Part shown: positions 4,902 to 12,249 of the stretch, piece by piece
How positions within the stretch are numbered: position 1 is the stretch's first letter
Layout: the number at the start of each line of letters is the position of its first letter
Virus record (IMG/VR): IMGVR_UViG_3300010299_000066
Location: 1-23,286 of that record
Source: a virus
Strand: one strand, 5' to 3'
Length of the DNA stretch: 23,286 bases
Program-made: the position numbers and the translations under genes
Notes under the pieces: generated by a model
What the model was told of the DNA's origin: nothing
The model's input: the letters and a program-made list of their open reading frames with translations, nothing else
Database searches by the model: none

Positions 4902-6599
4902 ATGGAAGATAAAGTGTTCTTTAACGGTTTTGAATCTACTTTAAAGAGTATGGAGAACATAAACTCAGATGAAAGATATTTTGAAGGTCTATTAACAGTA
5001 CAAATGAAAGATAAACAAGGTGAAGTTACCATTGTTGATGAGTTATACAAGGTTTTACCTGTATGGATTGACAGAGGAGCACCAATTTCTGACACACATT
5101 CTAACAGAATTGTAGGTAGAGGTATCAATTATTCAAGAACTGTAGTAAAAAATGATAAAGGTGAAGAACTTCCTGCAATCAAAATCACTGGTAAAATATT
5201 CAAAAATTATGAATTAGACAATGTTATTTGGGATAAAATCAAGAAAGGAGAGTATAAAGGACTATCATTTGGTGGTGCAACTAGAACAAATAGAGCACCA
5301 ATCGTTATGAAAGACGGTTCTATTGCTTATGCACTCAAAGATTTAGAACATTATGAGGTTGCAGTATGTAAAGATCCTGCTGTACCAATGGCATTAATAA
5401 CTGATTTTAATCCTATTGCAAAAGCAGATCATGATGCAACTGAAAGAGGTGATGGTAAGATGGTAATTCAATGCAGTAAAATGGGTTGTTATGTTGAAAA
5501 AGCAGAAGATCCATGTTGGGAAGGATATGAACAAGTTGGAATGAAAGAAAAAGATGGTAAACAAGTTCCAAACTGTGTTCCAAAAGGAGATACAAAAAAA
5601 GCAGAACAATTAGATCCAGATCCAGAAAATGCTGATCCAGAACAAATAATGAATAGAGCAAAAGTTGTAGGCAGAAAACAAGAAATGTACAAAGCAGAAC
5701 CAGATCCAGAACAATTAAAGATGGGAATCAAAGTTGAAATGGAACATACTGATGATAAAGAAGTTGCAGAAAAAATAGCAAGAGATCATCTAAATGAAGT
5801 TGCAGATTATTATACTAAATTAAAAGAAGTTGAAAAAGCAGATGAAGATAAACCATTAAACAAACCAATGAGAGATGATGGTGATAAAAAATTCAAAGTA
5901 TATGTTAAAGATCCAAGTACAGGTAACGTAGTTACTGTAAGATTTGGTGATCCAAATATGGAAATTAAACGTGATGATCCTGAAAGAAGAGCATCATTTA
6001 GAGCAAGACATGATTGTGATAATGCTAAAGATATTACTTCAGCACAATACTGGTCATGTAAGATGTGGGAAAAAGAAACATCTGTTACTGAATACACAGA
6101 AAAAAACATTGAAGATGTAGCAAAAGCAGATTTAGGTAAATATAGTACATTCCAAGGTAAAGTTCAAGCACTAATGGATGAAGGTTATCCAGAGGAAAAT
6201 GCAAAGAAAATAGTAGGAGCATTTGTTAAAGGTGAGAAAAAGAAAGATGGTGATGGTGGTGGAATGTCAACATCTACTGATGGAACATTTAATGCTGTTC
6301 ATGGTGGAGAAGGTAAAAAGAAAAAGAAAAATGATGAAAACGAAAAAGAAAGTGGGGATCATTCCAATTCTGACGGTGAATTACATGGTATGTACAATCA
6401 AAATGGCTCTGATTTAAAGAAAGAATATTATGGTGGAATAAGAGAAAACTATGATGGAACTATAAAACAAGGTGGTATGGATATATCAGAAACAGGTGGT
6501 ATTAATGTAAAAAGAACAAAGAAATTAAAAGATATTAAACGTTCATTAGAATGGAATGAAAAAATTATACAATTAAAAGAATTGAACAGAAACTTATAA
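4902..6599 (+). CDS. Prohead maturation protease with modular C-terminal extension
   Basis: Residues 1-170 match the HK97-type prohead serine protease pattern (peptidase family S78/U35): H66 in 'SDTHSNRIVGRG', S122 in 'YKGLSFGGA', and E152 in 'EHYEVAV' fit the catalytic positions. The enzyme trims scaffold and capsid N-termini during head maturation. At 565 residues it is far longer than a usual protease of about 200. The extension is a chain of modules: a Cys segment (185-228, 'PCWEGYEQVG' to 'VPNCVP'), a DUF5661-like segment (267-311, 'VEMEHTDDKEVA'), an 'RFGDPNMEIKRDDPERRASF' segment ending 'YWSCKMW' (347-390), a 'TFQGKVQALMDEGYPEENA' segment (416-434), and a Gly/Lys-rich tail. K-A-[D/E] motifs fall between them (174, 200, 233, 264, 312, 408). 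The ATG at 4902 is chosen because a TATA-like box is centred near 4875; an upstream in-frame ATG at 4803 would run through the previous gene. Confidence 0.8.
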   Translation: MEDKVFFNGFESTLKSMENINSDERYFEGLLTVQMKDKQGEVTIVDELYKVLPVWIDRGAPISDTHSNRIVGRGINYSRTVVKNDKGEELPAIKITGKIFKNYELDNVIWDKIKKGEYKGLSFGGATRTNRAPIVMKDGSIAYALKDLEHYEVAVCKDPAVPMALITDFNPIAKADHDATERGDGKMVIQCSKMGCYVEKAEDPCWEGYEQVGMKEKDGKQVPNCVPKGDTKKAEQLDPDPENADPEQIMNRAKVVGRKQEMYKAEPDPEQLKMGIKVEMEHTDDKEVAEKIARDHLNEVADYYTKLKEVEKADEDKPLNKPMRDDGDKKFKVYVKDPSTGNVVTVRFGDPNMEIKRDDPERRASFRARHDCDNAKDITSAQYWSCKMWEKETSVTEYTEKNIEDVAKADLGKYSTFQGKVQALMDEGYPEENAKKIVGAFVKGEKKKDGDGGGMSTSTDGTFNAVHGGEGKKKKKNDENEKESGDHSNSDGELHGMYNQNGSDLKKEYYGGIRENYDGTIKQGGMDISETGGINVKRTKKLKDIKRSLEWNEKIIQLKELNRNL

Positions 6600-6646: not shown

Positions 6647-7234
6647 ATGACTCTGGAAGAACTTCGTAAAGAAGACCATGAAGATGAAGAAAAAGTTTCT
6701 GAAGAAAAAGAAGACGAGTCAGAAGAGGAGAACACAAACAAATCTTTTGATGAAGCCTTACTCGAAACTCTATCTAGTCTCACAGAGCACGTAAAAGCAC
6801 TTTCAGAATCTCAAGCTGATTTAGAATCAAGACTTAATAAAGCTCTTGAGGAAAAACCAGAAACCCAACTCGAACTCCAACCTGCAACTTCTGATAAAGA
6901 AGACATTGGAGCTGAAGTCGTAGTTCCTGAAGCTTATCAATCCGATTCTGTTCAAGCAGGATTAGATGATGATAAATCTGGTGATGATAAACCAGAAAAA
7001 GATCAAAAAGGATTATCTATGCAACAAAAAGCACAGAAAGTCAACTTTGATTTTACTACAGAAACTCCAAGACCAAGTGCAGCAATCGAATCTGTTAACA
7101 AATCAGAAATGTCTGATTTTAGCATGATTTTGAAAGATGCAAGAGATGTTGGTTATGAAGGTTTATCAACAATCGCACAGAAGATTCAAAAAGGTGATTA
7201 TTACACTCCTTCTGAAGAGGAGAGGTTGTTCTAA
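6647..7234 (+). CDS. Probable capsid scaffold protein
   Basis: A 195-residue, highly acidic, Lys/Glu/Ser-rich protein placed between the prohead protease and the major capsid protein, the standard place of the scaffold gene in HK97-like modules. The N-terminal half (residues 1-75) is strongly charged and predicted by eye to be coiled coil ('LLETLSSLTEHVKALSESQ'). The middle is a low-complexity acidic linker (about 95-125). The C-terminal 60 residues are more ordinary and may bind capsid subunits. No sequence family is recognised; the assignment is from composition and position. It lacks the K-A-[D/E] motif seen in the protease and capsid proteins. Confidence 0.65.
   Translation: MTLEELRKEDHEDEEKVSEEKEDESEEENTNKSFDEALLETLSSLTEHVKALSESQADLESRLNKALEEKPETQLELQPATSDKEDIGAEVVVPEAYQSDSVQAGLDDDKSGDDKPEKDQKGLSMQQKAQKVNFDFTTETPRPSAAIESVNKSEMSDFSMILKDARDVGYEGLSTIAQKIQKGDYYTPSEEERLF
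7217..7225 (+). promoter_or_regulatory. Shine-Dalgarno-like sequence for the capsid gene
   Basis: GAGGAGAGG lies within the last codons of the scaffold gene, 11 bases before the capsid ATG. The capsid gene has no TATA box of its own at the usual distance, so re-initiation on a scaffold-capsid mRNA is likely. Confidence 0.4.
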
Positions 7235-7236
7235 AA

Positions 7237-8457
7237 ATGGCTCAAATACGAACAATAGACGAACTAGAAGCACTCTATTATGGACATAATAGAAACCTCA
7301 TTAGAAAAGCAGATGCTCCAATCACAACATCAACTACTGGTGTTTTTAACGCAGTATTTGGTGCTTATGCATGGGCTCAGCTTAACTTAGAAGCAAATGC
7401 TTTTGGTATTTTGCCAAAAGTTCCATGGGATAAATCTGGTTGGCGTACCATTACGGCTAAACCAACTATGACTACAACCAATGGTAATACCACATTAGGT
7501 GGTACTGCTGAGGGTGGATCTATTGCCGAAACTGTCAAACCAACTTTACAAGAGATTGACATCAGACCAAAAACTGCTCAGTTAGCATTTAGTGCATCTG
7601 AGGTTATGGAATGGTTGGCAACTCACAGTAAAGATGACATCTGGGGTGGACTTGGTTCACTTAGATTGTATATGGCAGTTCAGCACAAAGAATTCATTAA
7701 TAGAATGTTGCTAGCAGATGTTGAAAATGAAGCAGCAAACGCAAGTGCCAATAACAGTGGTACAACAAACTTCGAGACACTCGACAGAATCATTTCAAGT
7801 GATGCTGAAGAAGATGCTCTAGGTGGTTCGTACAACGGTTATTACGATTGTTGGGCAGCAAACGCTACCATTGATCGTGACTCAAGCACTACGTATGACT
7901 GTACTGTCGAATCTGCTTCTGGTACAATCGGTACTAATGGTGTCCTAACTGATGATACTCTGAGAACTTTCCTAAGAAAGATCAGAATCGCAGCAGGAAA
8001 AGATCCAAACGTCTTCCTCGGATCACATGAGGTATACTCAGAAATCCAAGGACTTTACATGCCTTCTGTCAGGATTCCAAATCCTTACGGTGAAGCACTT
8101 GTACAAGTTGACGTTAATGGTATCCAAACTTTCAAAGGTACTGGTGTCGGAATTCACGTTGATTCTATCTATGGAATCCCATTCATTCCATCAAAAGATG
8201 CTCCAAGCAACTCTGCTGACTCATCAGAGATCGGTAGATTGTTCGCTTTAGACACTTCTGATGCTGAAGGATATGGTTATCCAAGAATCGGAATGGCAAT
8301 TGCAATTCCAACAGAATACTATGAAGCAACTCGAAGAACACCAGCTTATCCATTCGTAAATGATGCTTTCGTTGAGAAAGGCATTTACAGAACTATGGGT
8401 GAGACTGTATGTCGTCATTTCAAATCTCAAGGTAAGATTAGAGATATTAAACTCTAA
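7237..8457 (+). CDS. Major capsid protein, HK97 fold
   Basis: A 406-residue protein directly after the scaffold gene. Its size, position and sequence character (an N-terminal arm, then 'TTGVFNAVFGAYAWAQLN' and 'AFGILPKVPWDKSGWRTI', and a long domain ending in 'GIYRTMGETVCRHFKSQGKI') fit an HK97-fold major capsid protein as in tailed viruses of marine Thaumarchaeota. The first 26 residues end in K24-A25-D26, the same motif that divides the modules of the prohead protease, so this N-terminal arm may be removed on maturation. The gene uses many C-ending codons (TTC, GAC, ATC, AAC), consistent with high expression. It is followed by a long T-rich stretch. Confidence 0.85.
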   Translation: MAQIRTIDELEALYYGHNRNLIRKADAPITTSTTGVFNAVFGAYAWAQLNLEANAFGILPKVPWDKSGWRTITAKPTMTTTNGNTTLGGTAEGGSIAETVKPTLQEIDIRPKTAQLAFSASEVMEWLATHSKDDIWGGLGSLRLYMAVQHKEFINRMLLADVENEAANASANNSGTTNFETLDRIISSDAEEDALGGSYNGYYDCWAANATIDRDSSTTYDCTVESASGTIGTNGVLTDDTLRTFLRKIRIAAGKDPNVFLGSHEVYSEIQGLYMPSVRIPNPYGEALVQVDVNGIQTFKGTGVGIHVDSIYGIPFIPSKDAPSNSADSSEIGRLFALDTSDAEGYGYPRIGMAIAIPTEYYEATRRTPAYPFVNDAFVEKGIYRTMGETVCRHFKSQGKIRDIKL

Positions 8458-8903: not shown

Positions 8904-9467
8904 ATGGCACAAATGCCAGCATTAATTCCAAAAGAAGTTGAAATACAACGACTAAAGAAAATTTGGCTCATTGTGATCGCAATGGGTTCAGTTGCAGCAT
9001 CAGTAGAAGTTGACAATTTTGTCGATGGTTCACTTCATCAAACATCCATTAGAGATAGTGCATTTACACCAGCTCATTGGTGGTTATATAGTCACTTTGT
9101 GGCACTACCAATAGGTTGGGGTACGGTTGCAATCTATGACAGAAAAGTTCCAGTTCTCAGAGGTGTAAATAATTCAATGAACACTGGTTTGAAAATGACC
9201 ATTCTTGGTTACTTAGCAACAATGTTTACAATTGGTGTAAACGAGATGTGGCACTTCTGGTTTGTAGAGGAAATCTTTGCAGTTCCTAATCACTGGATGT
9301 TTAACATGGGAGTTGTAGTTGCCTTTATGGGAGCATTAGCTTATGTCGTAAGAGTATATGCTAGATTGGTAGAACTTGGTGCAGAAACTCCAAGTGAAAA
9401 CCCATACGTTGCAGAAATGTACAAGATGGCTCTGGAAGGTAAATTATACAGCAGATCAATCCCATAA
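8904..9467 (+). CDS. amoC: Ammonia monooxygenase subunit C, virus-encoded
   Basis: The 187-residue product is an archaeal-type AmoC, an integral membrane subunit of the copper enzyme that oxidises ammonia to hydroxylamine. It is full length, without frameshift. The conserved copper ligands of the AmoC/PmoC family are visible as D41-x3-H45-x12-H58, and a second set N113-x3-H117 with H130 is compatible with the neighbouring copper site. Hydrophobic helices lie at about 18-34, 60-80, 97-113 and 133-152. There is no amoA or amoB here, so the protein must join host-encoded subunits; it is an auxiliary metabolic gene that could sustain or alter ammonia oxidation during infection. It has its own TATA box and an oligo-T terminator, and C-ending codons are common. 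Viral amoC is known from marine thaumarchaeal viruses. Confidence 0.95.
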   Translation: MAQMPALIPKEVEIQRLKKIWLIVIAMGSVAASVEVDNFVDGSLHQTSIRDSAFTPAHWWLYSHFVALPIGWGTVAIYDRKVPVLRGVNNSMNTGLKMTILGYLATMFTIGVNEMWHFWFVEEIFAVPNHWMFNMGVVVAFMGALAYVVRVYARLVELGAETPSENPYVAEMYKMALEGKLYSRSIP

Positions 9468-10447: not shown

Positions 10448-11071
10448 ATGGCTACTACATATTGTACTGTTGCAGATGTCGCAGATTTTCTACGTGTTCC
10501 AATCACTGCTACTACTACTCCAAATAAGACTCAGGTCGAGAAGATTATCAATAGAAAAGAAGAGGAACTCGACAGAAGAATAGGTCATACATTTGGCAGA
10601 AATAAGACTGTTACAAAGGAAGTTCATGATTTACCATTACTTTATACTTATGGGTGGGGTACACCAATATTTCTAAAACATAGAAATTGTAGAGATTTAG
10701 ATTCTGCCGAGGGTGATAAAATAGAAATTTGGCAAGGTGCAGATTCTACTTATACTGATATTCTAAGTAACACACAATGGTATGATTTTGAACCAGTTTA
10801 CGGTAGATTATTTTTAAGAGGATATATTTTTACTATTTTAAGAAAAAACAGAGTTAGAGTTACTTACCGTTATGGTGATGCAACAGTTCCTTATGACATT
10901 CAAGATGCCTGTGTTAAGTTAACTGCAATAGACATTTTGAACTCTAGTTTTAGAATGGACGTATTACCTATGGGTGGAAGTGGTATGGATATTCAAGCTG
11001 CAAAAGCAGATTGGAGAGCAGATATAGAAAACTGTGTTGAGAATCGACAAGAAGTATTCTTCATACCATAA
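10448..11071 (+). CDS. Head-tail connector (adaptor) protein
   Basis: The 207-residue protein begins 'MATTYCTVADVADFLRVPI' and continues with a helix 'TQVEKIINRKEEELDRRIG', the usual start of gp6/adaptor-type connectors that dock under the portal. The middle is beta-rich (hydrophobic 'YGRLFLRGYIFTIL' and 'NRVRVTYRYG'), followed by 'PYDIQDACVKLTAIDIL', a helix typical of the same family. The ATG at 10448 is chosen over an in-frame TTG one codon earlier. The stop codon TAA overlaps the ATG of the next gene by one base (TAATG), so the two are translationally coupled. Confidence 0.75.
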   Translation: MATTYCTVADVADFLRVPITATTTPNKTQVEKIINRKEEELDRRIGHTFGRNKTVTKEVHDLPLLYTYGWGTPIFLKHRNCRDLDSAEGDKIEIWQGADSTYTDILSNTQWYDFEPVYGRLFLRGYIFTILRKNRVRVTYRYGDATVPYDIQDACVKLTAIDILNSSFRMDVLPMGGSGMDIQAAKADWRADIENCVENRQEVFFIP

Positions 11072-12249
11072 TGGAAAAATCTCAAAAGTCTTCTATACCA
11101 GATGATATAGAAATAGTTTTACATGATGCAAAAGATATACCAAAACAACAAAAATCACTTTATACTAGACACATGACTATGTTGGCAAGAAAAGCTAATC
11201 AAGAACTTTATGATAGATTTAAAAACACAGCAGATATAGATTTTATACCAATGTATGTTTATTATGATGTTATGAATAAATCTATAAAATTAAAATGTAG
11301 AAAAGAATTTTTAGACAAGTATTTAGAAGTGGAAATTGATTTTGCAAAATGGTTGAGAAGTAAAGGTATGTTTAAAAAAGCAGGTAAATGGGAACAATAT
11401 AAACAGAATGAATTTGCTAAAAAAAGTCCACATTTAAAAGACCAAAAAAAACAATACATAAAAGAAATGAGAGAACAGGGAAAAATAAGTGAATTTGGTA
11501 AAACTATTAAAAAGGATTCAAAGGTATCACAATCAAGTACAGTAATGTATTCTAGGAAAGCAGAGTATTTACCAAAAACTCAAAGAACAGATAAAACTAT
11601 TGAGGTTACACAACAGCAGTATAATAAACCCATAAAGGGAGCTGATATGTTAAAATTATTTAATCCAGAAAATGAAGAATTAATTTGGGGTGGTAGTAAT
11701 TTTAAATCTTATGTTATAGGAAGAGGTGTAAACCCTAAAATATACAATAAAATAATGAAAGAAGTATTAGCATTATTATGGAAAGAGTTTGAAAAAGTAA
11801 ATGTTTTAGAACTTACAGAAGAAGGTGTTGCAGAATTTCAAGAATCATATCTTTCAAGATTTCCTAATATTGAAAGAGTAAGAGATTGGTTTGTAAATAA
11901 AGGTATTTACAATACATCATCAGGTCATTATTATACATTAGAAAGATTCATGAATTTAAAATCAAACAAAGCTAGGGCAAATTTCATAGATAGGGCAGTA
12001 TTTATAATATCCAACTCAATATACATGAAAGCAAATAATATTAATCCTTTAACAGTAAGAGGAAAACCAAGATTAAACGCAGGTATGAAAACCAGTATAA
12101 AAAGAGCACAAAAATTCAAGAAAATATCTGCCGAAAGAAAGAAATATTCTACTGAAAGAACAAAGAAATATGATGAGTGGAGATTAGATGATAGAAAAAT
12201 TGCTGCTAATCTTAAACGTAAAGTGACTAGGAGTAAAAGGGAAAGATAA
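11071..12249 (+). CDS. Large basic protein of unknown role in neck gene position
   Basis: A 392-residue protein with very high Lys and Arg content. Residues 1-50 contain a helix 'KSLYTRHMTMLARKANQEL'; the centre (about 190-330) looks globular and mixed; the last 60 residues are almost entirely basic helix ('KRAQKFKKISAERKKY', 'NLKRKVTRSKRER'). No domain is recognised. It is coupled to the connector gene and precedes the tail terminator, where phages often encode neck or minor head proteins. A DNA-binding virion protein ejected with the genome, or a neck component contacting DNA, would suit the charge. Base composition is particularly AT-rich here. Confidence 0.6.
   Translation: MEKSQKSSIPDDIEIVLHDAKDIPKQQKSLYTRHMTMLARKANQELYDRFKNTADIDFIPMYVYYDVMNKSIKLKCRKEFLDKYLEVEIDFAKWLRSKGMFKKAGKWEQYKQNEFAKKSPHLKDQKKQYIKEMREQGKISEFGKTIKKDSKVSQSSTVMYSRKAEYLPKTQRTDKTIEVTQQQYNKPIKGADMLKLFNPENEELIWGGSNFKSYVIGRGVNPKIYNKIMKEVLALLWKEFEKVNVLELTEEGVAEFQESYLSRFPNIERVRDWFVNKGIYNTSSGHYYTLERFMNLKSNKARANFIDRAVFIISNSIYMKANNINPLTVRGKPRLNAGMKTSIKRAQKFKKISAERKKYSTERTKKYDEWRLDDRKIAANLKRKVTRSKRER

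Follow-up and report, generated by a model that had tools for sequence, protein, structure and literature searches.

Positions 4902 to 6599 of the window, i.e. the whole stretch of 23,286 bases analysed here (IMG/VR virus record IMGVR_UViG_3300010299_000066), probably encode a precursor protein for capsid maturation, in which an N-terminal protease is followed by exchangeable modules and would cut itself at K-[A/S] tags shared with the major capsid protein (MCP) and the scaffold. We put the probability of this reading at about two in three. The precursor is best read as a protease or protease-scaffold polyprotein comparable to gpO of phage P2 and UL26 of herpesviruses, expanded by a hypervariable array of modules. 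Cleavage at these tags, its position at the bond next to Ala/Ser and the fate of the freed modules, which would stay in the head or be ejected, are predicted from sequence.

The source seems to be a tailed virus of marine ammonia-oxidising archaea, since an AmoC-like gene is encoded and the MCP is related to those of archaeal viruses. The AmoC-like gene (8904-9467; PF04896, E 4e-14), an auxiliary metabolic gene of ammonia oxidisers, is located directly downstream of the capsid genes, and amoC-carrying viruses of marine ammonia-oxidising archaea are known (Ahlgren et al. 2019, as cited in PMC8651126). The portal (1027-2904), protease (4902-6599), scaffold-like (6647-7234) and MCP (7237-8457) genes follow the S78/HK97-like order portal-protease-scaffold-MCP.

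Translation of 4902-6599 gives an acidic protease of 565 aa with 13% Lys, composed of the following parts:

4902..5420, + strand: catalytic core of the prohead protease, residues 1-173; relatives are 69-100% identical
5421..5429, + strand: K-A-D, residues 174-176, core end and candidate release site; K174 is invariant
5430..5498, + strand: conserved Cys segment C-x3-G-C-x-V, within residues 177-199
5499..5507, + strand: K-A-E, residues 200-202, start of the Cys/Trp module
5508..5597, + strand: DPCWEGYEQVGMK...PNCVPK (Cys/Trp) module, residues 203-232; phrog_9737/36547 match at residues 199-230
5598..5606, + strand: K-A-E, residues 233-235
5607..5690, + strand: QLDPDPENADPEQIM segment (QLDPDP segment), residues 236-263; absent in L083
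5691..5699, + strand: K-A-E, residues 264-266, start of the DUF5661 segment; K-A-E in 6/6 copies
5700..5834, + strand: DUF5661-like module, residues 267-311; Pfam PF18905
5835..5843, + strand: K-A-D, residues 312-314; K-A-[DE] in 5/6 copies
5844..6122, + strand: phrog_7595 / HVA1-like module (PLNKPMR...YWSCKMW, core 319-389) plus the segment after it
6123..6131, + strand: K-A-D, residues 408-410, start of the TFQGK module
6132..6236, + strand: TFQGKVQALMDEG...IVGAFVKG (TFQGK) module, residues 411-445; commonest module among relatives
6237..6596, + strand: Lys/Glu-rich low-complexity segment and C-terminal helix, residues 446-565; helix 532-564 (low-confidence model)

In the core, H66 and S122 (GLSFGG) are invariant in 24 sequences and are the candidate catalytic residues. 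The core of the window protein matches Pfam S78 (PF04586) only weakly (E 0.012, 16.2 bits, below the cut-off of 21), and a relative (L122) matches the phrog_80 head maturation protease profile (E 5e-7). In the tail, residues 253-312 match PF18905 (DUF5661) with an E value of 2.4e-14 and 53.8 bits, above the curated cut-off of 27, and the DPCWEGYEQVGMK...PNCVPK module is present too in cyanophages, haloviruses and other phages. The AlphaFold2 model of the protease has a mean pLDDT of 47, too weak for assignment of a herpes-protease fold, and a Foldseek search of the PDB with this weak model gave no match at E <= 0.001. All six K-A-[D/E] sites lie in segments with pLDDT below 50, as does about 69% of the tail; the low pLDDT at the tags was left out as evidence, since most of the tail is equally low.

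A sequence-only reading of this DNA had placed six K-A-[D/E] motifs at residues 174, 200, 233, 264, 312 and 408, all after the catalytic domain. The translation agrees, and residues 1-173 contain none. Five of the six had been assigned to module borders, which was mostly right, and the sixth (residue 200) proved to be a border as well, that of the Cys/Trp module. Indeed, each tag starts a segment that recurs elsewhere (post-core, Cys/Trp, QLDPDP, DUF5661, phrog_7595/HVA1-like and TFQGK, respectively). The six copies in the tail are about ten times the 0.63 expected from composition, and none of 20,000 shuffles of the tail reached six (maximum 5). The 23 other genes of the window together encode five K-A-[D/E] sites against 3.1 expected: four are spread over three genes, and the fifth is K24-A25-D26 of the MCP, correctly noted earlier and the sole such site in that protein.

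More than 100 relatives of the protease core were found in IMG/VR, with complete proteins of about 360 to 1,047 aa and differing module sets behind these conserved cores. L083, with a core 99% identical, lacks exactly one KAE-to-KAE unit, the QLDPDPENADPEQIM segment. Compared with shuffles, 56 non-redundant tails show a 2.2-fold enrichment of K-A-[D/E] but none of [^K]A[DE]. An abrupt onset of local similarity between two tails was taken as a module start; K-A-[D/E] adjoins 57 of 392 starts defined in this way, where 10.7 would be expected by chance. As border residues must match, this unmasked test partly favours K, and it was replaced by a version in which the motif was masked while borders were defined; there, 34 of 400 module starts adjoin the motif against 10.7 (z 7.8), the tails being related, so that counts are inflated and z values are not probabilities. 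In the masked test, K-S-[DE] alone behaved similarly (12 against 3.9, ratio 3.1), with 16 other control tripeptide classes at ratios of 0.4-2.0. The expectation that K-A-[D/E] is kept at the borders thus holds in that its frequency there is far above chance, but not as regards position, which is unfixed as modules come and go: the tags travel with the modules.

The rule itself had to be revised. At the core end, K174 is invariant, and of 72 proteins 61 have A and 11 have S next to it, but the third residue is free, being D/E in 4/72, which does not fit the K-A-[D/E] rule of the sequence-only reading. The conserved element is K-[A/S], and D/E mostly follows between modules and in the MCP. Because K-[A/S] is constant and the third residue free, a bond next to Ala/Ser appears likelier than one after D/E. 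K-A-[D/E] also occurs within 9/72 cores (11 copies altogether, most of which adjoin the catalytic Ser) and in three other window genes, and therefore cannot suffice for cutting by itself. In cores with SFGGATKAEREP, e.g. L043 and L095, the K-A-[D/E] beside the catalytic Ser is possibly buried or an internal cut; an internal cut has been reported for some herpes proteases (PMC4498786).

Two further proteins encoded downstream of the protease carry the tag:

6647..7234, + strand: gene of the probable scaffold protein, 195 aa; about a third of relatives have it joined in frame to the protease gene
7100..7108, + strand: K-S-E, residues 152-154 of the scaffold, just before the conserved LKDAR C-terminal domain
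7237..8457, + strand: MCP, 406 aa; phrog_24667, E 6e-27, residues 17-405 (nearly the whole protein)
7306..7314, + strand: K24-A25-D26 in the N-terminal arm of the MCP; conserved in relatives

The 195-aa protein is acidic and probably coiled-coil. The window encodes it separately from the protease; at 24 loci, a single ORF was matched by both the protease and the scaffold queries, the protease tail being continued by the scaffold (L250 is one further fusion; the others include L043, L046, L064 and about 20 more). These fusions support the identification of 6647-7234 as the scaffold gene. A V-x-K-S sequence precedes LKDAR in nearly all scaffolds, and K-[A/S] is present there in 47/50 against 20% expected, with a variable third residue. 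K-[A/S] also recurs densely in the coiled-coil-like scaffold.

In the MCP, K-A-[DE] is found at residue 24 in 134/135 close relatives and nowhere else in those proteins. Since this region is well conserved throughout the close relatives, distant haloviruses are the better test. Halovirus MCPs match that of the window with E values of 1e-18 to 1e-21 and about 26-32% identity, and the K-A-D of the HCTV-1, HVTV-1 and HCTV-5 proteins aligns with K24-A25-D26, so that the tag earlier seen in the capsid arm is kept at the homologous position in distant viruses. In the alignment of marine viruses and haloviruses (29-32% identity), K24 and D26 are invariant, and among the residues before K24 only T6, Y14 and Y15 are. 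Several haloviruses have K-Q-D or K-A-N at the tag position, Ala being sometimes replaced by Gln, and the more distant methanogen virus vir519 has N-A-D. Right after the protease core, HVTV-1 and HCTV-5 have K-A-D and HCTV-1 has K-A-K. Like the window virus, these three Druskaviridae have a protease gene directly before the MCP gene, and their homologous MCPs carry K-A-D at the corresponding place, but their long acidic protease tails are devoid of the marine modules and their MCPs have an N-terminal extension. This extra domain of about 70 residues ends in a second K-A-D (residues 71-73 in L235, 70-72 in L236), near the start of the marine MCP. The AlphaFold2 model of the MCP was useless (pLDDT 29); no relatives were found in a PDB search with the MCPs, and a scan of genome contigs for the MCP gave no match.

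The phrog_7595 module is found on other head proteases as well. On S78_2-type proteases (e.g. gp55 of roseophage CRP-6), it is preceded by K-A-[D/E] in 24/24 distinct contexts; among 18 other distinct contexts, K-A-[D/E] precedes it only in two marine-archaeal copies and in a short one of the S78_2 kind. Roseophage-like proteins also have K-[A/T]-D ahead of the S78_2 domain; this did not enter the counts, as it may be part of the protease fold. On a third protease type (L262, L285, L329-L343), A-A or E-A precedes the module and K does so in 0/7. The flank of the shared module therefore tracks the protease (K-A on the K-type, no K on the V-E-A type), although it may in part have been inherited together with the fusion. 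The third type, which is unrelated to the window protease, belongs to a separate marine phage group, in which V-E-A stands between modules (33 against 5.8 expected), Ala being the last common residue before each module. Most MCPs of this group begin with a short arm, L-E-[EQ]-I-L-[NTQ]-V-E-A, with V-G-A or V-S-A in a few, and the tag of this arm stands in the context NVEA-x-x-GPFG. In two groups with different proteases, then, the inter-module tag is repeated in the N-terminal arm of the MCP, and the flank of a shared module goes with the protease type; of all the sequence data, this is the strongest argument for a cleavage tag, with the reservation that flanks may be inherited.

The following pathway is proposed. 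The precursor protease would enter the prohead via its own tail, a fused scaffold or contact with the separate scaffold; after prohead assembly, it would cut itself at K-[A/S] tags, which between modules mostly read K-A-[D/E], and in the same step cut at K24-A25-D26 of the MCP and at the V-x-K-S before the C-terminal domain of the scaffold. Loss of the MCP arm would permit expansion, and the cut pieces would leave or remain in the head. Self-cutting prohead proteases, protease-scaffold fusions and the use of one short motif by one protease are already known; the variant here would be the presence of many tags inside the protease's own exchangeable tail. P2 gpO comprises a protease plus a scaffold, and the P2 MCP loses 31 N-terminal residues (PMC7552001). 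The window system shares with P2 the N-terminal protease and a short MCP N-arm (about 30 residues) whose removal is predicted here. A scaffold carried on the protease chain is common to both as well, but here in some of the relatives only; gpO, however, has no module array, the scaffold of the window is a separate gene and cleavage is a prediction here. Herpesvirus UL26 (assemblin) has a release site after the protease domain and a maturation site, the second site, near the scaffold C-terminus, and for the protease of pseudorabies virus the most likely cut is behind Ala (YLQA-T) (PMC4498786). UL26 differs in having two sites rather than many and no swappable modules, and any homology of its catalytic domain to the window protease is putative. 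Finally, gp245 of the giant phage SPN3US processes many head proteins by cutting behind A-X-E and also trims off its own C-terminal part (PMC5694885, PMC10052503), i.e. it likewise combines one short motif common to many head proteins with C-terminal self-processing, but its motif ends in an acidic residue and its substrates are separate proteins rather than modules of the protease. No description of a hypervariable, exchangeable module array on a protease with a capsid-shared tag was found in a literature search, most subscription papers being outside its scope.

Concerning the bond, the sequence-only reading had placed the cut after the acidic residue (K-A-[D/E]|), with a capsid protein starting at A27. 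The A-X-E rule of gp245 and the invariance of D26 in the MCP down to the haloviruses suit this proposal, which is nonetheless doubtful: K-[A/S] is kept at the core end and in the scaffold with a varying third residue, so that the acidic P1 of the T4/phiKZ/SPN3US type is not found there, and both the common Ala of the V-E-A group and the likely cut of the pseudorabies virus protease point to Ala. It is unlikely, too, that the tags are linkers or recombination seams whose shared DNA lets modules swap in frame with no cutting. All six protease tags are spelled AAAGCAGA[A/T], all seven window copies including that of the MCP share AAAGCAGA, and the loss of one exact KAE-to-KAE unit in L083 would be expected from repeat slippage. 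However, the spelling is mostly explained by codon bias (at tags across tails, AAA 88% against 78% in the background and GCA 79% against 72%). As the junction codons roughly follow ordinary codon bias, the constraint is mainly on the protein, and a seam purely at the DNA level is disfavoured. Furthermore, the core end, the scaffold and the MCP arm all have the tag without being evident exchange points, and the V-E-A group repeats the pattern with a different tripeptide in polyprotein and MCP.

It is very improbable that the motif is a functionless by-product of Lys/Glu/Asp-rich composition or of shared ancestry. The protein is indeed rich in Lys and acidic, and relatives share modules, so that counts are not independent, but the shuffles, which kept composition, never reached six, and neither [^K]A[DE] nor substituted triplets are enriched at borders. 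A more credible alternative, a little short of even odds, is that the tail serves as scaffold or spacer only and is wholly degraded during maturation, the modules being assembly or portal-binding elements rather than intact cargo. It is compatible with cleavage and differs solely in the fate of the pieces. The precedents of P2 gpO and herpes UL26 as protease-scaffold fusions (PMC7552001, PMC4498786), the 24 loci with a joined scaffold and the dense K-[A/S] of that coiled-coil-like protein are in line with it. Against this, modules such as phrog_7595 and the Cys/Trp segment occur also in proteins other than head proteases, which better suits folded units with a role of their own; a role beyond spacing is plausible because the modules are widespread in other phages, where they also form part of unrelated proteins.

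A wider generalisation can be put forward tentatively, at rather less than an even chance: in several unrelated groups of tailed viruses, maturation proteases could be cargo-bearing polyproteins, in which mobile micro-domains are gained or lost at tags of the virus's own protease (K-A-x here, V-E-A in the other group). Cleavage in the prohead would free them along with the MCP arm, and they would remain in the virion as internal proteins that may enter the host. If the reading of the module array and its capsid-shared tag is right, the cleavage motifs of uncultured viruses could be recognised from sequence, as a tag common to polyprotein and MCP, and many small domains without annotation would find their place inside the heads of abundant marine viruses. 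Cultured relatives for a test exist in the HVTV-1 group.

Elsewhere in the window, a Lys-rich (15%) protein of 392 aa (11071-12249) with one K-A-E at residue 163 is encoded, which had no match in PHROG or Pfam. The portal-like protein (1027-2904) has a possible zinc-ribbon insertion at residues 77-126, according to weak Pfam matches.
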